A DNA stretch of 64,000 bases, taken from Kangiellaceae bacterium (lineage in GTDB: Bacteria > Pseudomonadota > Gammaproteobacteria > Enterobacterales > Kangiellaceae). Below the pieces are notes generated by a model, which saw nothing but the letters and a program-made list of their open reading frames with translations, was not told the DNA's origin and searched no databases. The stretch lies in NCBI GenBank assembly GCA_026196875.1, contig JAPHTP010000010.1, positions 1 to 64,000 of the forward strand. Direction: 5' to 3'. Numbering within the stretch: position 1 is the first letter of the stretch; each line of letters begins with the position of its first letter. The position numbers and the translations under genes are program-made. This document shows, piece after piece, positions 19,611-29,411 of the stretch.

Positions 19611-20330
19611 TCAGAAGTGCCATTTGACTAAAAAACTAAAGGTATTTTGATTGGTCTCAAAAGCGTTGCTGTCAGGAATACCAAATTTGTCCGACCAATA
19701 GTCATATTCGATGCCCAAGTACCACTTGTGATTACCACCATGCCATTGTTGCATGTCAATCTTGATTTGCGGATTAAAATGTAAGTTCTCTTCTGTTTCA
19801 TCACTCGAGAAAGTCCAGTCGAAAAATCCGTCAATTATTAGTGGAACACCTCCCAGTTTCGTATCCATCGACCAAACACCGGTTAATTGATAGCCTTTAC
19901 CCGAAATATCCGGGTCATCGCGTTGGTAAAGGTTGGCATTAAAGTAATGGAAAAAAGAGGTATTAAAGTCAAAGCCTAGTCCATAAAGATTAGATTCAAC
20001 TCCGCCCGAGCCCCTTTCAAAAGTGGTCGCGAAGGTCAGCTTTTTAAGCAAACCACCTCCTTCGAAATCCATTATTTTTATTCTCGGGGAAAATTCACCA
20101 TAGCGACTATCACCGTTGTCAAAGTCTTTGGCATCGATAAATAAAAACATATCCACCCAGTCCCAAGCAGCAGCATACTCAAAGGTAATTGTTTGTTGCT
20201 CTTCAGGTTCAACTGTATAGTTATCCCCAATTAGATAGGACAAGCTTCCGTCCCTAAAATTAGCGGCATATGTACTTTCACTAAACAGAACAGTAGTTAA
20301 TAACACTAATGTAATTCGAACGCTTTTCAT
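19611..20330 (-). CDS. Tsx-like outer-membrane channel (DUF5020/nucleoside-specific porin family)
   Basis: The 239-residue protein has a signal peptide (about residues 1-22, ending STYA) and a beta-barrel-like alternating pattern ending in the terminal aromatic KWHF. Motifs such as TFEYAAAWDWVDMFLFID and the QWHGGNHKWYLGIEYDYW region fit the Tsx/DUF5020 outer-membrane family. Its ATG overlaps the stop of the upstream sensor gene by 4 nt, so the two are translationally coupled. This suggests the channel admits the ligand sensed by the THI5-like domain of that protein, which is inference. Confidence 0.85.
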   Translation of the reverse strand: MKSVRITLVLLTTVLFSESTYAANFRDGSLSYLIGDNYTVEPEEQQTITFEYAAAWDWVDMFLFIDAKDFDNGDSRYGEFSPRIKIMDFEGGGLLKKLTFATTFERGSGGVESNLYGLGFDFNTSFFHYFNANLYQRDDPDISGKGYQLTGVWSMDTKLGGVPLIIDGFFDWTFSSDETEENLHFNPQIKIDMQQWHGGNHKWYLGIEYDYWSDKFGIPDSNAFETNQNTFSFLVKWHF

Positions 20331-23300
20331 ACAAACTCCTTTGTAACGTAATCTCGAAAATCATTTTTATCCATTGGTTTTCCTAAGTGGTAACCTTGCC
20401 CAAAGTCACATCCGTGAGAGGTTAAAAACTCTAATTGTTCTTGAGTTTCAACTCCTTCAGCAATGACCTTCATATTAAGCCGTTTCGCCATTACGAGAAT
20501 AGTTTCAATCAATGCGTTGCCTGATTCATCGCGATTAATTTTCTCTACGAATGCTCGGTCTATTTTAATAATGTCGACTGGAAATTTAACCAGGTAGCTT
20601 AGTGATGAATAACCTGTACCAAAATCATCTATCGCAATTTTGACGCCAAATTCTTTGAGTCTGTTCAAAACACCGAGGGCTTTTTCTGTATCATCAGTTA
20701 ATAAACGCTCTGTAATTTCTACTGTTAAGCGGGTATTTTTACTTAATAATTCGATACACTCCATCCAGTTTTGGAGCGCTTTGTCTTTGGTGTGGAAGAG
20801 CCTCGGTGATACATTAATCGAAAGCTCGATATTACTTCCCTGTTCGTTTAGATAGTCTAGCCAACCAATTGCTTTCTCAAGAATCATAAGGTCTATTTTG
20901 TTAATAAGCCCAGACTCTTCTGCGAGTGGTATGAACTCTCCGGGTGAGATGAATTTTTGTTCGTTATTAATCCAGCGAGCTAAGGCTTCACATTTCTCAA
21001 TACTGTTATTGCGTAAATTAACAATGGGTTGGAAGTACGGTGTGAGTTGATTACTGTTAATTGCTTCAATAAGCTGAGTTAATAGCCTGTGTCGATACTC
21101 AGATTTCTCTTGCATTTCTCGAGTATAGAATTGCCAACCATTGCGACCACTGTTTTTAACCTCGTACATCGCTTGGTCAGCTTTGCTAATTAACGACTGT
21201 GCGTCTTGGCCATCACTTGGGAAGAGAGAGATGCCTATACTCGCACTACAATGAATTGATACTTCTCCTATGGCAAAGTTCTTTTCCATTTTGGAAATGA
21301 TTTGCTCAGTTATTTTAAGGGCATTGTTGAAGTCCTTAAGCCCGGGAAGGATTACGCCAAACTCGTCACCGCTCAGACGAGAAACCGTGTCAGAATCTCT
21401 AACGCAACTTAGAATACGCTTTGAGGCTTCTATCAATAGTTTGTCACCTATCGAATGACCGTAGTTATCGTTGACAGGTTTGAACCTATCAATATCAATA
21501 AACAATACGCCAACAATTTCCTTTTCTCTTTTAGCATCTTCGATTGCATGGTTAAGGCGATCATTAAACAGTACTCGATTTGGTAAATCTGTCAGGGCGT
21601 CGTAGGTCGCCTGGTGTTCAATTAACTTGGCGCTGACAATTTTCTCCGTGACATCTTGTATTGTTCCGGTGACAACATATTTGCCCTCACTGCTGGAAGA
21701 AAACTGGGCAATCACTCGAGTCCAAATTGGGGATGATTGGCTTTTCAATTCAAGCTCTATATCAAAAGGTTGTTTGTCATTAAAAGCCTTCTTGATACTT
21801 GACTCCAATAAAAAAAATCCTTCACCCTCAAAAAGAGGGCGCAAGTCTTGGAGTTTTCGGGGACTATAATTTGGTTCTTTTTGTATCGTTATAGCTGTTT
21901 GTTTTGACCACTGACAAATATTTAAATTTTCATCAACTTTCCAACCACCAATTTTGGCGACGCTACCAACTTTTTCTAATAGTCTACGGTGATTGCGGAT
22001 GGTTGCTTGGTAAGCTAGTTTCTCTTTTTCCTGTTTAAATCTATAGATAGCAAAGCTTGCTATCAAAATTGTTAGAGCGACTGTCGCTAATCTCGATACC
22101 GTGAGAGTGAAGGAAGATGCCTCTGCCATATTCTTGGCCGTTGCAGCCAAATGCCAGGTTCCGCCGCCAACGCTGATAACAAATTGTACACTGTTACTGG
22201 CTTCAAATAGATTTTTGTCGCCATAAAAGACAGGACCTTGATTTCCGAGAGAGTCAAAGCTTCTCATTGCCAGGTTAGCTTCACTGGCTAAACCGAAAAT
22301 TCCTGAGCGTTTAAATAGATCGTCAGCGTCAAGAGGTGCCGAAATAATGCCCCAAAATCGTCGTTCAGAGTCTGAGCCGGTAAAAATTGGAGCTCTACCA
22401 ATAAATGCCTTTCCTCCTTGAATCAATTCAATTGGCCCTACGACCAAAAGTTGTCCGGTGTTTGCAACTTGCATAACCATTTCTCTTTGCGCTTTATTTT
22501 GTTTGTAATCAAGCCCGATGACTTTTTCATTGCCTTTTAGGGGATAAACAAAATTAACTACCAAATCTTTCGCTGCGGCAAAATTGATGAGAAGCGGTTC
22601 TTTCTTAAATAGCTCTCCTGCATAATTGTCAAAATCTTGCCTGGTTAAATCTGGTGAAGCGGAAATGTAAGCGGCGAATCCATTAATCATGGATAAGTTT
22701 GTTCTTAGGTTGCCTTCAAGCTTTGCGCTAACAGAAGCAAGATGGCGGGTTAAGTTGAGTTTTTCTAACTGTTCTCGTTCATTTTTGATTATTTCTTCAA
22801 GTTGGTATTCGGTCGTAGCAGCTAAAGTAACGATTGTTAGGAGTGTTAGCGGTAGCTGGCGTTTATACCAGAAAATAAATACGAGAGGCAGCAAGACGAC
22901 AATAGTTATCAGTAGATTAACTAATGAAGAATAGCTGCTGTCTTCACTAATTGATTCAAATAGTGCATTTTTGTCTAGAGTTGATTTAACAATACCAATC
23001 GACCTAAGTCGCTCATTCATGGTAAACCAACGATCTGTATTGGAGTGACCGAGCGGAGTTCTGGGATAGTCAATTAGCTCATCAATCAAAGTTGAGAAAG
23101 CCAGATTATAGGCAAATAGATCTTTATAGAAGATCTGATGTCGCTCTAATTCATTTGCAATTTGAAAGGCAACTTCTCTTTTATTTTTTAGCGCAAACTT
23201 CCATCCCAAAATTGAAGCGTCAACAAATTTTTCAACCAGCTCAGGATTCTCTTTAAGAAACGATTTTCGCGTATATAGCGTGTCACCATAAAATCTTAAA

Positions 23301-23911
23301 CCAAAATCAGCGGGGTGGAGGCGGTTTAATTTTACTCCTTTTTCTTCCGATTGGACCTTGGCTGAAATGTCATAAGTAACGATTGCATCGGCCTTGCCCT
23401 GAATGAGTGTTTCAATTGTGACAGGTTCATCAACAAAATCTATTTTGGAGATATCAAAGCCACGAGATTTAAATAGAGCAATAATTTCGATTTTGGTTGC
23501 ATCATTGTCGACGGCAGCAATTTTGAGTTTAGCGAGCTCAGATAAGTTTCTGATTGGAGTTTGCTCTAAACTAAAAACCGCACTTGGGCTCCGCTGAAAT
23601 ATTGGGGCTAGAACTGCTAGTGATGCACCCGAATCTTGCCCGGTTAAAATATCAAGTGAGCCAATAGCAAACTGGGCATTTCCAGAGGTTAATTCGTCTA
23701 ACGGTGAAACAATACTGCCATCTTTTTTAACCGCGGGTAATATTTCAACTTCTAGCCCCGCTTGGCGATAATATCCTTGCCAATTTGCGGCGTAAAAACC
23801 GGCAAATTGAAACTCATGTTCCCACTTTAATTGCAGTGTAACTTTTTCAAGTCCATAGGCAATTCCACTTTTAACGATTAAAACTAATAAAATCAGAAGC
23901 TTATAAGGCAT
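20327..23911 (-). CDS. THI5/NMT1-like - CHASE - PAS - GGDEF - EAL c-di-GMP sensor enzyme
   Basis: This 1194-residue protein starts with a signal/anchor and a periplasmic SsuA/THI5-like substrate-binding domain (about residues 20-320, with QLKWEHEFQFAGFYAANWQG). Membrane segments lie at about 330-370, a CHASE domain at about 400-590, and another membrane segment at about 610-635. It ends with PAS, GGDEF (SGDEF at 847-851) and EAL (EAL at 975-977, DDFGTGYSS further on). The S for the first G of GGDEF is tolerated in some active cyclases. The EAL residues look intact, so net c-di-GMP breakdown is likely. It is coupled to the Tsx-like porin gene. Confidence 0.92.
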   Translation of the reverse strand: MPYKLLILLVLIVKSGIAYGLEKVTLQLKWEHEFQFAGFYAANWQGYYRQAGLEVEILPAVKKDGSIVSPLDELTSGNAQFAIGSLDILTGQDSGASLAVLAPIFQRSPSAVFSLEQTPIRNLSELAKLKIAAVDNDATKIEIIALFKSRGFDISKIDFVDEPVTIETLIQGKADAIVTYDISAKVQSEEKGVKLNRLHPADFGLRFYGDTLYTRKSFLKENPELVEKFVDASILGWKFALKNKREVAFQIANELERHQIFYKDLFAYNLAFSTLIDELIDYPRTPLGHSNTDRWFTMNERLRSIGIVKSTLDKNALFESISEDSSYSSLVNLLITIVVLLPLVFIFWYKRQLPLTLLTIVTLAATTEYQLEEIIKNEREQLEKLNLTRHLASVSAKLEGNLRTNLSMINGFAAYISASPDLTRQDFDNYAGELFKKEPLLINFAAAKDLVVNFVYPLKGNEKVIGLDYKQNKAQREMVMQVANTGQLLVVGPIELIQGGKAFIGRAPIFTGSDSERRFWGIISAPLDADDLFKRSGIFGLASEANLAMRSFDSLGNQGPVFYGDKNLFEASNSVQFVISVGGGTWHLAATAKNMAEASSFTLTVSRLATVALTILIASFAIYRFKQEKEKLAYQATIRNHRRLLEKVGSVAKIGGWKVDENLNICQWSKQTAITIQKEPNYSPRKLQDLRPLFEGEGFFLLESSIKKAFNDKQPFDIELELKSQSSPIWTRVIAQFSSSSEGKYVVTGTIQDVTEKIVSAKLIEHQATYDALTDLPNRVLFNDRLNHAIEDAKREKEIVGVLFIDIDRFKPVNDNYGHSIGDKLLIEASKRILSCVRDSDTVSRLSGDEFGVILPGLKDFNNALKITEQIISKMEKNFAIGEVSIHCSASIGISLFPSDGQDAQSLISKADQAMYEVKNSGRNGWQFYTREMQEKSEYRHRLLTQLIEAINSNQLTPYFQPIVNLRNNSIEKCEALARWINNEQKFISPGEFIPLAEESGLINKIDLMILEKAIGWLDYLNEQGSNIELSINVSPRLFHTKDKALQNWMECIELLSKNTRLTVEITERLLTDDTEKALGVLNRLKEFGVKIAIDDFGTGYSSLSYLVKFPVDIIKIDRAFVEKINRDESGNALIETILVMAKRLNMKVIAEGVETQEQLEFLTSHGCDFGQGYHLGKPMDKNDFRDYVTKEFV

Positions 23912-24263
23912 CAGATAAGAGTTAAAATTTTTGATCTTTGATACTAAGCCTAGTTGAAATTAAATCGAATTGCTGTTGAATTTGGTTCATTAGCGGTTTG
24001 AATGCCGTCGAGAAACTATTAACTCCGGCTTTCATTAGTAGGTGTACCTAAGCTAGATGTTTTTGGGAGCCGTTCAAACTAATTATCTGTGTTTATAAAA
24101 GAAACAGCTTAAGGGCAGGGATGTTTAGAAAAATTCGACAAATTATGGCCTTTATCGGATGTCCTTCCCCCATTGCTAAATTGATAATATATACTTTAGA
24201 GATATAGATTTGTTTAGGAGCCGCTGGGCAGGTACTGAGCAGGTGTTTTGAGGAGAATTTGGT
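23912..24263. other. 352-bp divergent intergenic region
   Basis: This spacer lies between the THI5-GGDEF-EAL gene and the MshEN gene. It is AT-rich, with a TATA-rich stretch at about 24180-24210 that could hold the promoter of the MshEN gene and a good AGGAG ribosome site at 24251-24255. I looked for a GEMM-type c-di-GMP riboswitch and for palindromes and saw none convincing. Confidence 0.4.
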
Positions 24264-24977
24264 ATGTCAGATGGAGCGCGTTCAAAGGAGACATCCCGTC
24301 TTGGTCTATTGCTGGTCGAGAAAGGCCTGATAACGGAACGGGATTTACAATTAGCGCTGCAGGTACAACAACAAGAGGGGAAAAGGCTAGGCGAAGTACT
24401 TGTAAGCCAAAAACTGATCACTCGTACTCAACTAACCCAGGTTCTCTGTAAACAAAAGTGGCTTCGTTCCGCTGTTGCTGGTCTATTAATTGCGGCTGCG
24501 CCCGTATGTCCTGCGCTGGCAAGCGAAAAACCCCTGGATTTTGGCGGTAAAACAAAACTATTCGTAGATAAGTCCCCAGATAAGATAAATTTCTCTGGGG
24601 GGACAAATTTTGAACCTGACTCGAAATTTTCGGTGGGCTTAAAGCATAGATTTGATTTTGGACCTTCTGTTGAGGTGAGATTTAATCAAGGTCCCCAATT
24701 TGATCCAACTCAACCTGCAAATTTTGCTCCGCAAATATCATTTGCCTCAGGTGGCAGAAGTTATTCAGATAAAAAAGTGGGCTATAGGCACTCAATGGGC
24801 CCGAAGAGATTTGACCGCTATAAAGACACTATTCCGGCCATTTATCGGTTAACGATTAAGGGGTATTCGATTTATGAAAAGGAACACAATACAGTTGAAA
24901 CTTGGGGAATGAACAAAGTTAAGAGCCATCCTTGTAAGGACTACGAACTGATGTTCTCAGTTACCAAGCATTTCTAG
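24264..24977 (+). CDS. membrane-anchored MshEN c-di-GMP receptor protein
   Basis: AGGAG lies 8 nt before the ATG. Residues 12-35 and 41-64 are two copies of the MshEN motif (RLG-x2-LV, a G in the first copy, L-x3-L-x2-Q), separated by exactly five residues (36-40), as in the high-affinity c-di-GMP-binding MshEN domain. The second copy has K50 where G is usual. A hydrophobic segment (about 68-87, AVAGLLIAAAPVCPALAS) then leads to about 150 probably periplasmic residues with beta-strand character, two cysteines near the start/end and a terminal F. The C-terminal part matches no family I know. Divergent from a c-di-GMP enzyme, it may carry the c-di-GMP signal across the membrane. Confidence 0.75.
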   Translation: MSDGARSKETSRLGLLLVEKGLITERDLQLALQVQQQEGKRLGEVLVSQKLITRTQLTQVLCKQKWLRSAVAGLLIAAAPVCPALASEKPLDFGGKTKLFVDKSPDKINFSGGTNFEPDSKFSVGLKHRFDFGPSVEVRFNQGPQFDPTQPANFAPQISFASGGRSYSDKKVGYRHSMGPKRFDRYKDTIPAIYRLTIKGYSIYEKEHNTVETWGMNKVKSHPCKDYELMFSVTKHF

Positions 24978-25052: not shown

Positions 25053-25508
25053 TTACTCGACCGCCAATATTTTTAACTTGGCTTTTATAAATTCGCTATG
25101 AGGAACAAAAAGTAAGTCGGCAATTTTTCTAAGATAGTGCTCTTCATGATGGTCGATCCTGCCGTCAGCATTGGCTACTCGCCATAAGTATTCAATTATT
25201 CGGAGCTTCTGTGGCATTTCGAAGTGACTATTGATTAGCGAGGTAAACTGGTAGTAATCCGTGGCGTTTTCCAATTCGTCTTTGGTTAATTGTTTTAGTT
25301 CTTCTATTTCTTGCTCAGTAATGCCGAGTTCTTCCATTAAAATGGTGTTAACCTGGTCGATCTCTAGCTTAGAGACTTCATTATCAATAGTCGTCATTTC
25401 CAGCAGGACTGCAGCAATGGCGAGGTTCAGCGAGTGCTCCGTTGTTGTTTCATCGGCACTGGAAATTTCGATAAACTGTTCAAAGAACAAAGTAATTTTT
25501 TTTAGCAC
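25053..25508 (-). CDS. TerB-like (tellurite-resistance TerB superfamily) protein
   Basis: The 151-residue all-helical protein matches the COG4103/TerB family: LNLAIAAVLLEMTTIDNEVSKLE in the first half and LWRVANADGRIDHHEEHYLRKIADLL in the second. These are the two acidic metal-binding-like repeats. Length is normal. The molecular function of such small TerB proteins is not settled. It follows the ChpA-N-like gene on the same strand after about 126 nt. Confidence 0.85.
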   Translation of the reverse strand: MLKKITLFFEQFIEISSADETTTEHSLNLAIAAVLLEMTTIDNEVSKLEIDQVNTILMEELGITEQEIEELKQLTKDELENATDYYQFTSLINSHFEMPQKLRIIEYLWRVANADGRIDHHEEHYLRKIADLLFVPHSEFIKAKLKILAVE

Positions 25509-25634
25509 TGTTTTTGATTACTCCGGAATTACTCAACCATTGAGAAGTTTAAAAGTCGAAGGCGGACTCAGTCAACTTCAATCACCTAAGTATAAATCAA
25601 GATAATCAAACCTTTGAGTACAAAGCGTTAGAAT

Positions 25635-27305
25635 TTATTTCTGATAAGTTCGGTTGAGTTGCAACAAGCTATTGTCTGCAAATTGAAGAATTCGAGAACT
25701 GGGGGTTGCGGTAAACTTTAGCGTTTCCAAATAGAATTCCAAACTTCCTAAAGTATCGGCAAACAAATTTAGCGCATCATCACTGGTGCTGTGTGGATTC
25801 TTAATTAGGTGATGCTGTATAAATACACTACAACCACTAATAATGTTTTCGACGCCACTTACTTTTAATTTGGCGAATCCAGTGGCAATGTCGTCCAACA
25901 GGCCCGGCGCTTCTTTAAGGATCAGGGCCTTTTTATTTTCTTTGGTAAAGCGGGTAAAGCACTGCATCAAAGCTTTGATACTTTGGTTGGTTTGTTCCCA
26001 GAATTGTTGCTCTGCTTTGTTCAGTTTTTTGCGACGATTTGAGGTCTTACCGGATAACTTCTCTACTTCTATATCGTCTAGTGCTTTTCTTATACTATCA
26101 AGCACTATATACAAAATATTAAAATCCTTAGCACTGAGTAGTTTAGCTTCGCTTTGCGCCTTTTCCATTAAGTCGATGGCGACGCTTAACCTAACAGACT
26201 GATCGTCAATTTGCAGTATTTTGAGCAAGTTGTTGAGGTTGTTCATTTGCTTATTGGCTGCATCCATTTCTTCCGCATCCAATGCATGCTCTTGGCAATT
26301 GCGCAAAATACTCTCGATGTTATCCACTTCGGTTAACAGAGCTTCAGCAATTGACTTGTAGTCTTGATCACTCGGACCACGCAACTCTTCCATTTCTTCT
26401 CTTAATACGGCATCAGTGATTTCTGTGCCAACGATTTCAAAATGGTTTAAAACAGAAGTTACCAAACTAGATTTAGAGCCGCTAATTGAAGTCAGGTATA
26501 GCATTTCTTTCGTCAGTAATCGCATTTCCAATTTATTATCGTCGAGCAGGTTTTCGCGTTTGTTTTCGACTTTTCGAATTTGTCGGTCGATACGAGAAAA
26601 TAGCTTCAGTCTGGCCCGGGTCATTGCGAGCTTTTCATCTATAAAACACTGAATCATGGCTTCGGCAATCCACCAGAGGTTAGGACTGTGAGGGCGCGGA
26701 CATTCCTTATCCAACTTGACCAAAGCCTTTTGCATCATCCTTAAACCACCGGTTAAGTTAGTTTTGCGTAAAACTTCGATAAGACCGATTTGGTACATTT
26801 GCCGGTAATGACGTGACGCGGTTGCGCTTTCTTCACTAGTGACTAAGACTAAGCCTTGTTCATTTCGAGGCTGTGTTCCGTCTGGAATGAAAAACACCGA
26901 TTCCCCCAGTACCGGAACATTGGCACACTGCCTTAAGTCATTTATCGAAGGCAATAGCAACTGTGGGATATCGCAGGGTTTATGATTAATATGTTCGCTA
27001 TAGCGCATTAATCTGGCAAGCGAAGTTGAGGTTGTTTCTAACAGGGCTGCTCGGCTAGTTGGCTTACGTTTAGTAATGCTCTTGAGCAAGCCAATTGCAT
27101 CGCCAACGAGTCTTTGCGCACCTTGCATTTCCAACAGTGTAAAAACACCCTTCAGCTTTTGTAGGTGAGCAATAGATTTTTTTAAGGATTTCAGATTCTT
27201 ATAAGATTTTGAATAGTTGTCTAATGAGTTAATCGCAAGATTAATTTCTGCAGATACGTCTTCGAGAATGAGGTCGAGTGATTGTAAGCTGCTAACTTGT
27301 GACAT
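25635..27305 (-). CDS. stand-alone ChpA N-terminal-like protein (pseudo-Hpt module)
   Basis: The 556-residue soluble helical protein resembles the N-terminal region of ChpA/PilL-type chemotaxis kinases: KLKGVFTLLEMQGAQRL near residue 52, LLPSINDLRQ and VLGESVFFIPD around 115-145. It lacks the kinase, CheW and receiver domains. The Hpt-like segment has Q where the phosphorylatable histidine would sit (QKLKG instead of HxxKG), so it is a pseudo-Hpt. The rest is helical with several KLxxxL patterns. It may act as a scaffold or decoy in a pilus/chemotaxis pathway, which is inference. The start ATG follows AAGAG. Confidence 0.65.
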   Translation of the reverse strand: MSQVSSLQSLDLILEDVSAEINLAINSLDNYSKSYKNLKSLKKSIAHLQKLKGVFTLLEMQGAQRLVGDAIGLLKSITKRKPTSRAALLETTSTSLARLMRYSEHINHKPCDIPQLLLPSINDLRQCANVPVLGESVFFIPDGTQPRNEQGLVLVTSEESATASRHYRQMYQIGLIEVLRKTNLTGGLRMMQKALVKLDKECPRPHSPNLWWIAEAMIQCFIDEKLAMTRARLKLFSRIDRQIRKVENKRENLLDDNKLEMRLLTKEMLYLTSISGSKSSLVTSVLNHFEIVGTEITDAVLREEMEELRGPSDQDYKSIAEALLTEVDNIESILRNCQEHALDAEEMDAANKQMNNLNNLLKILQIDDQSVRLSVAIDLMEKAQSEAKLLSAKDFNILYIVLDSIRKALDDIEVEKLSGKTSNRRKKLNKAEQQFWEQTNQSIKALMQCFTRFTKENKKALILKEAPGLLDDIATGFAKLKVSGVENIISGCSVFIQHHLIKNPHSTSDDALNLFADTLGSLEFYLETLKFTATPSSRILQFADNSLLQLNRTYQK

Positions 27306-28214: not shown

Positions 28215-29411
28215 ATGAGAATAGACCAAAGTGCGGTGCGCAGATTAAGAACTCCATTAAATAATAAAAATACAATGAGTACAGTCAACACAATCGACGA
28301 GCAAAACCAAAGTATCCAAAAACGTATAGATATGGATATGCTGAGTCGCTCCCTCCCTGGTATCGTAATATACGCCTTTCTTTGGCCCTTAATATTTTTG
28401 CCTACTGGGTTTCATGAGAGTGCTCCAATGATAAGTTGGGGCATTTCAGCGGTCTTAGCCGGGTTAAGTTTGCTGCGCTGGCTGCAAGCTAGAAACACTG
28501 AAAGGTGGTATCGCAACAGTCCAAAGAGTTGGCAAATTTACTTTGCAATCTGTTCGCTTTTGCAGGCGATGGTTTGGGGGCTGCTGTTTTACTTAGTCAT
28601 TGCTGACGATAGTATGGATGATGTCCGTTTTATGCTAGTACTAGCGATTGGCGGACTTTCTAGCGGTGCTTTAAGTGCCTTAAATCCAAGAGTCGGGTTA
28701 GCGATATCCAATATTAGTCTAATATTAGTGCCGGGCGTGATAGCCAGTTTGATGGTTAACCTCGACTATTCTTTAGCTGTTTTGATCACCATCTACTTTG
28801 CCTACTTGATCATGTTAGGGATGCGCTCGCACAAGGAATACATGAGAGCGTTTAGGATTGAGATTCAGCTCGATGCCCAGCGTAAGGAGCTTGAGCGGTT
28901 AAACAAGATTGACCCATTGACATTGATTTATAATCGGGGTCATTTCAATACAACTTTTGATTTTCAATGGAATCAAGGAATTCGATACAAACAGGAACAG
29001 TCACTATTATTAGTCGATGCAGATCACTTTAAACGTATTAACGATGAGCACGGTCATTTGTTTGGTGATGAATGCCTCGTCTATATAGCCAATGTTATTC
29101 ATCAACACGCTAAGCGTAAAACTGATGTAATCGCTCGTTTCGGCGGTGAAGAATTTGCGGTGCTGCTGAGTGATACCAAAATTGATGAAGCGGTCAAGTT
29201 GGCAGAGGATATACGTGGTGCATTGGAGAATAATGCGTTTGTATTCGAGGGAATCGAAATAAGTGTTACCGTGAGCATCGGGGTCGCAAGTATGGTGCCC
29301 GAGTCGTCATTAAATTCCAATGTATTGATTGATAACGCCGATAAGGCTCTCTATCAAGCTAAAGATTCCGGTCGGAATCGAGTTATATCTTTTTCCGCAG
29401 AAACTCATTAA
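28215..29411 (+). CDS. membrane diguanylate cyclase with six-helix sensor
   Basis: The 398-residue protein has about six transmembrane helices (residues 48-202) and a GGDEF domain. The active motif GGEEF is at 310-314 and the inhibitory I-site R301-x-x-D304 lies five residues before it, so product inhibition is expected. The metal-binding LVDADHFKRIND segment is complete. It therefore probably makes c-di-GMP. The membrane sensor has no named domain. An ATG at 28275 (M21) is an alternative start, since neither has a clear ribosome site. Confidence 0.9.
   Translation: MRIDQSAVRRLRTPLNNKNTMSTVNTIDEQNQSIQKRIDMDMLSRSLPGIVIYAFLWPLIFLPTGFHESAPMISWGISAVLAGLSLLRWLQARNTERWYRNSPKSWQIYFAICSLLQAMVWGLLFYLVIADDSMDDVRFMLVLAIGGLSSGALSALNPRVGLAISNISLILVPGVIASLMVNLDYSLAVLITIYFAYLIMLGMRSHKEYMRAFRIEIQLDAQRKELERLNKIDPLTLIYNRGHFNTTFDFQWNQGIRYKQEQSLLLVDADHFKRINDEHGHLFGDECLVYIANVIHQHAKRKTDVIARFGGEEFAVLLSDTKIDEAVKLAEDIRGALENNAFVFEGIEISVTVSIGVASMVPESSLNSNVLIDNADKALYQAKDSGRNRVISFSAETH

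Follow-up and report, generated by a model that had tools for sequence, protein, structure and literature searches.

An MshEN domain directly ahead of a predicted export signal in a Kangiellaceae protein, and its reuse on other passengers

The window, i.e. the whole stretch of DNA that was analysed, comprises the first 64,000 nucleotides of contig JAPHTP010000010.1 of a Kangiellaceae bacterium (assembly GCA_026196875.1). The gene under study encodes a protein in which an MshEN domain is followed by a signal-like segment and by a passenger domain; MshEN plus signal is referred to below as the cassette. The parts of the gene, its neighbours and two further loci are listed in Table 1.

Table 1. 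Coordinates of the features described (window positions unless a locus is given)
Feature	Position	Strand	Remark
Whole ORF: MshEN, predicted signal peptide, passenger	24264..24977	+	237 aa plus stop, ATG start
GAGGAG, Shine-Dalgarno-like, 5' of the ATG	24250..24255	+	read from the sequence
MshEN motif 1, residues 12-35, RLGLLLVEKGLITERDLQLALQVQ	24297..24368	+	motif layout, NF053729.1
Spacer, 5 residues, 36-40	24369..24383	+	motif layout
MshEN motif 2, residues 41-64, RLGEVLVSQKLITRTQLTQVLCKQ, K50 at the second turn glycine	24384..24455	+	NF053729.1
n-region/junction KWLRS, residues 65-69	24456..24470	+	cassette alignment
h-region A70-P80, hydrophobic, predicted to prolong MshEN helix 4	24471..24503	+	model, hydrophobicity
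c-region, SPase I-like site ALA/S, predicted cut after A86	24504..24521	+	site scan
Type A passenger, residues 87-237	24522..24974	+	pLDDT 47.6
Passenger C-terminus, conserved, FDRYKDTIPAIYRLTIKGYSIYE...MFSVTKHF; also in proteins without MshEN	24810..24974	+	homologue search
NMT1-CHASE-GGDEF-EAL protein (c-di-GMP turnover)	20327..23911	-	upstream neighbour
GGDEF protein	28215..29411	+	downstream neighbour
CS1/TcfC-type chaperone and usher genes behind MshEN-bearing inferred pilin; M61-like peptidase gene ahead	L043:4030-11383
M23 metallopeptidase, MshEN directly before signal-like segment	L117:2468-3403		Acaryochloris sp. 'Moss Beach' plasmid pMB01

The 24-5-24 layout of MshEN is exact in the protein, in agreement with a preceding sequence-only reading, which had recognized two motifs of exact length and a five-residue spacer. 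The NCBIfam model NF053729.1 ('c-di-GMP_motif, MshE-related') matched at full length on residues 12-64 (E 1.7e-16, 59.8 bits, cut-off 38), and Pfam-A gave no MshEN or T2SSE_N match to the window protein at E<=1. Among PDB chains, phmmer found PilF 6f8l (E 2.5e-9) and MshE 5htl_A (E 2.8e-8), and a profile of 20 cassette rows matched MshE in the PDB at E 2.7e-15. Judged against the MshEN motif RLG...L...L..Q, as given in the available text of PMC5013675, the contact-class positions fit at 12 of 12 places (R12, L13, G14, L28, L32 and Q35; R41, L42, G43, L57, L61 and Q64). The turn glycines (G18 and G47 of MshE) are not both conserved: G21 is kept, and the lysine (K50) that had been pointed out in place of the second glycine is indeed there. 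In a set of 40 cassettes the contact-class positions fit in 36-40, counts which lean upwards owing to permissive residue classes and to a scan that picks the best fit, and the turn glycines are present in 29 and 31, being absent at the first place in 11 and at the second in nine.

An AlphaFold2 model of the protein shows a four-helix bundle with a pLDDT of about 76-86 over residues 11-60. The helix predicted at residues 54-78 continues without a break past the end of MshEN and through much of the hydrophobic segment, the pLDDT in its second half (residues 61-80) being 69 and then 50. In a structure comparison with VIA-align, where Z values below about 13 are common among helical bundles, the MshE-c-di-GMP chain 5htl_B ranked first (Z 9.5, 67 residues, rmsd 5.1) and the best unrelated row reached Z 6.9. 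All of the top ten rows were MshEN/GSPII or PilB N-terminal domains, and 8pe0_A superposed 55 residues at rmsd 1.3. Four MshEN domains exceed the cut-off in the genome of the window, three of them in cassettes. From sequence and model we infer that the window protein is a c-di-GMP binder via MshEN.

A single hydrophobic segment, likewise noted earlier, was found at about residues 70-86, starting five residues (KWLRS) past the last MshEN glutamine and ending in ALA/SEK (84-86/87). It has the features of a Sec signal with an SPase I site, namely the positively charged n-region KWLR, a short h-region (A70-A79) and small residues at -3 and -1 of ALA/S. Whereas ordinary Sec signals are N-terminal, this one starts at about residue 65 and spans residues 65-86. 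The junction residues W66 and R68 are nearly invariant (at least 90% in 20 aligned cassettes). In these respects the hydrophobic segment resembles a Sec signal of the cleavable kind, and the cut is predicted after A86.

A homologue survey for this architecture, which the sequence-only reading had proposed as a check, yielded 40 proteins with the MshEN-plus-signal layout, most of them with a cleavage-type site. Nineteen are from the window's own family, one (L059) is from another family of the same order and 20 are from other members of the class; they are related, many being orthologues, and counts among them are not independent. A scan that took the last qualifying site at positions 19-26 placed an SPase I-type site (Ala at -1, small residue at -3) in 38/40 cassettes, window included, and the other two carry a lipobox, so that no cassette has a hydrophobic segment devoid of both. 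With shuffled c-regions, an SPase I-type site turned up in 15.2 of 40 on average and in 27 at most, a comparison that yields no probability since the cassette rows are related. The distance from the last glutamine to the cut is 22 residues in 31/38 (as in the window, counted from Gln64), 24 in six and 21 in one. The strongest hydrophobic stretch of 10 residues begins at offset 4-9 past this glutamine in all 40 cassettes (score 1.83-2.92), while in MshEN ATPases of the same order (18 rows, 17 genes) it begins at offset 0, 11-16 or 31 with scores up to 1.93; two ATPase rows (1.93 and 1.85) are more hydrophobic than the weakest cassette (1.83).

Dual initiation, in which a second start would give a plain signal, was rejected for the window gene, as no start codon lies around the junction: neither the last 15 residues of motif 2 nor the next 12 residues contain ATG, GTG or TTG. 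Such codons occur in the junction stretch of 30/40 cassettes, ahead of the h-region in 19/40 and at no common position, and dual initiation may take place in those that have them.

Past the predicted cut, the expected domain of about 150 residues of unknown fold and extracytoplasmic type was found. Models were poor outside MshEN (mean pLDDT 47.4 at full length and 47.6 for the passenger-only run, AlphaFold2); the C-terminal Phe hints, as a guess, at an outer-membrane barrel. A search of 40 genomes of the family with the C-terminal 55 residues of the passenger gave 22 matches in 17 of them, 13 in proteins with MshEN and nine in proteins without. On visual inspection, all nine MshEN-free homologues have a short hydrophobic stretch resembling a signal close to the N-terminus, some of their starts being uncertain. 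The passenger thus looks like a normally exported protein, with MshEN added ahead of its signal.

The cassette is not confined to this passenger. At a BLAST threshold of E<=0.01, 41 passengers (that of L041 truncated by a contig end) fell into seven groups: A, the window type (13 proteins); B, an inferred pilin (5); C, lipoproteins (2); D, L059 (1); E, PA3740-like (17); F, L071 and L073 (2); and an M23 peptidase from Acaryochloris (1). Weaker links between passengers were taken as chance, among them one at E 0.056 between the window and L042 and others with E values up to 1. L059, L071 and L073 could be distant relatives of type A, so the seven groups may represent fewer kinds. Both type C lipoproteins have repeats of Ig/PKD type, as judged from a scan of part of L045 and by eye for L042.

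In the 40 family genomes, 19 cassettes whose match extends to the signal end of the profile occur in 14 genomes, with passengers of type A (13), B (4) and C (2). Every genome of genera g1, g3, g4 and g6 has an ATPase match, a cassette match or both; in genus g5 (20 genomes of 1.4-2.9 Mb) the cassette profile matched nothing at E<=1e-6. The five named matches are three strains of Aliikangiella, placed in the Gammaproteobacteria by NCBI, and two metagenome bins, one of them labelled Kangiellaceae. In a sample of the order (394 genomes) at least one further cassette, G095, was among the matches listed. A half profile (motif 2 plus signal) matched 4/369 genomes of a class sample and 9/398 of a phylum sample, in each case besides the window's own; in the phylum sample one match is false and one repeats the class sample. 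In one of the families matched in this way, related sequence was detected with a hybrid query in 47/198 genomes, and the proteins of all ten loci retrieved show the cassette. In Acaryochloris, M23 peptidases encoded on plasmids (three records, one translated) have MshEN followed directly by a signal-like segment.

Several other matches were set apart. L084 was rejected as a cassette, its match being 25 positions inside a large frame, as were standalone cyanobacterial MshEN genes. Matches like the M23 peptidase of plasmid pMB01 were seen in two plasmids of A. marina MBIC10699. Four short frames of about 65-115 aa (L060, L061, L118 and L119) contain little besides MshEN or half of it and no evident signal segment, and two of about 285-300 aa (L062 and L063) contain several MshEN-like motifs and then another domain. 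Two MshEN frames of ATPase length with identical scores lie 59 kb apart in one genome (G004:C5:20410-20577 and 79507-79674), possibly a recent duplication or an assembly artefact.

The type B passenger is probably a chaperone-usher pilin, as its gene context suggests. In genome G002 (locus L043) the type B gene is followed by a gene for a PapD-like chaperone and then by a TcfC/CooC-like usher gene. Just past the usher, on the opposite strand, lie two homologues of the type B protein with plain signals; the MshEN protein and one of these align at the predicted mature start (A/SSQGNLGSSST and A/ATQGTLGATST). Pfam names none of the three proteins. In another family (L074), a chaperone-like gene, recognized by eye, follows the type B gene. 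L043 is thus a candidate locus at which c-di-GMP may control one subunit alone. Pilins that polymerize and lipoproteins need to be cleaved, which argues against a permanent membrane anchor.

The nearest thing to experimental support for a c-di-GMP link is a peptide match. According to the available text of a review (PMC8789108), octamer peptides of PA3740 bind c-di-GMP, and LKKALKKQTNLR is its putative binding motif. The cassette junction of L085 reads LAKALKKQTNLR and matches the published PA3740 peptide at 11/12 residues, so that this peptide would span the junction, from the last residues of motif 2 through the n-region. Judged from this match, PA3740 of Pseudomonas aeruginosa probably has the MshEN-plus-signal architecture. 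In the accessible portions of the literature PA3740 is described as a swarming motility protein with MshEN joined to an uncharacterised domain (PMC5013675), and is labelled PilZ (PMC8335546), MshEN (PMC7122816) or listed among PilB MshEN domains (PMC9765702); with labels so varied, these papers, as far as their accessible text goes, do not settle its architecture. Deletion of PA3740 did not lower biofilm in c-di-GMP-overproducing fleS/fleR mutants, an assay of biofilm and not of export (PMC8335546, available text).

The gene neighbourhood is merely suggestive. Both GGDEF neighbours of the window gene are kept in L044 and L049 and not in L050 (three neighbourhoods of the same genus; L046 and L047, on short contigs, were left out). 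In genus g3 a PAS protein adjoins the type A gene in 6/6 loci, and in the single one that was scanned a GGDEF match (E 6.4e-4) falls short of the cut-off. The genome of the window has 86 GGDEF matches, so GGDEF adjacency carries little weight, and a shared c-di-GMP neighbour gene was discarded as support. A TerB-family gene and a gene for a protein of 556 aa occupy window positions 25053-27305 and stand beside the type A gene in L044, L049 and L050 as well; the 556-aa product has no Pfam match above cut-off.

With the domain, the signal features, their conserved spacing and the recurrence of the cassette ahead of unrelated passengers at hand, we give an even chance to the reading that the product carries a c-di-GMP-sensing pre-signal domain which modulates Sec export of its passenger; cleavage, gating and the direction of gating are proposed here. 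The product would be an exported passenger, periplasmic or outer-membrane, made with a leader of two parts: a complete MshEN bundle in the cytoplasm and, joined to its last helix with no linker between them, a Sec signal that can be cleaved. MshEN would fold while the signal is still cytoplasmic. Binding of c-di-GMP would lock or release the bundle, the abutting signal helix would be offered differently to SRP, SecA or SecYEG, and the messenger would thus set the amount of passenger exported. Signal peptidase would then free the passenger, and an MshEN-signal piece of about 86 residues would stay behind. With fixed spacing and no linker, the signal helix could sense the state of the ligand where helix 4 ends, which favours export tuned by c-di-GMP. 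That high c-di-GMP favours export is a guess, prompted by the recurrence of adhesion-type passengers. A stricter claim, that of a ligand-gated signal peptide, is held tentatively, at somewhat less than an even chance. In it, binding of c-di-GMP would directly decide whether Sec exports a single selected protein of each system, such as one pilin of a chaperone-usher system. As part of the same tentative claim, leaders of this kind would be reused on pilins, lipoproteins, peptidases and envelope proteins, both in Gammaproteobacteria and in one or more genera of cyanobacteria.

The sequence-only reading had instead proposed a permanently membrane-anchored inside-out receptor, with an uncleaved single-pass anchor and a cytoplasmic MshEN that senses c-di-GMP and signals to a periplasmic domain. 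One hydrophobic segment between domains of cytoplasmic and extracytoplasmic type would suit such a protein, as would the uncharged runs of 18-22 residues in 13/40 cassettes. Against it stand the cleavage-type sites and lipoboxes of the cassettes, the plain signals of the nine MshEN-free homologues and the inferred pilin and lipoprotein passengers, which must be cut, and it is considered very unlikely. As evidence that would speak against its proposal, the earlier reading had named a signal whose cleavage would prevent MshEN from folding; the signal is indeed of cleavable type, but loss of MshEN is not expected, as the predicted cut lies past the domain and cleavage would leave it whole. The same cut, leaving a whole MshEN on a membrane helix, would allow the passenger to be exported regardless while the MshEN-signal fragment serves as a short-lived membrane c-di-GMP sensor, sponge or partner. 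The unrelated passengers would be irrelevant in such a model, which however has no need for the fixed distance from glutamine to cut seen in most cassettes; we think it unlikely.

Only slightly better placed, and still on the improbable side, is a role of MshEN as a docking or localisation tag (for a pilus or T2SS ATPase, the pole or a local cyclase), in which c-di-GMP would tune docking and not the signal peptide. Pilus ATPases have MshEN as their N-terminal domain, the type A gene has GGDEF genes close by in the window as well as at L044 and L049, and the PAS protein of g3 adjoins it there; however, the abundance of GGDEF genes makes this adjacency weak, and no partner gene was common to the cassette types in the neighbourhoods examined. 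Finally, the cassette might be an inert N-terminal extension left by a fusion, with no present regulatory role. That nine homologues look exported without MshEN would agree with this, yet almost all of the 40 cassettes, which come from several families, retain the contact positions and the cassette is reused on seven passenger groups, which makes an inert extension the least probable of the explanations considered. Export modulated by the pre-signal MshEN domain is therefore retained as the preferred reading.

The placing of MshEN directly ahead of the export signals of several unrelated proteins suggests that the messenger may control which proteins leave the cytoplasm. Known outputs of c-di-GMP act on transcription, RNA, enzymes, motors or proteolysis. 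If the preferred reading is true, a receptor acting at translocation, protein by protein, would add a new level of control, might account for the way in which the reported c-di-GMP binder PA3740 works and would provide a portable module for messenger-controlled secretion. A partial literature search, which included the available text of PMC12943098, found no description of MshEN ahead of export signals. The MshEN fusions given in the main text of Wang 2016 (PMC5013675) are with ATPase, glycosyltransferase, REC, HD-GYP, CheA, CheX, cyclase and kinase partners, and that list holds no exported passenger. The supplementary tables of the same paper could list such proteins, for which reason the absence is weakly established.

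An N-terminal extension ahead of an ordinary Sec signal is known from the ESPR of autotransporters, for which functions beyond targeting have been proposed; unlike the MshEN of the window protein, the ESPR is short (EspP N-domain residues 1-26) and is not a ligand-binding domain of known fold (PMC2805444, available text). The MshEN/GSPII domains of MshE, PilB, PilF and NfrB share with the window protein the 24-5-24 motif, the match to the curated model and the predicted helical bundle, but they sit in cytoplasmic ATPases or a glycosyltransferase, whereas the window MshEN abuts an export signal of cleavable type. PA3740 is linked to the cassettes by its published peptide, which resembles the L085 junction; the type E passengers are unrelated to that of the window by BLAST. 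In the LapD/LapG system, c-di-GMP decides on the surface display of an adhesin through periplasmic proteolysis of the already exported protein. Both that system and the one proposed here place surface or exported proteins under c-di-GMP, but in the window protein the leader itself would contain the receptor.
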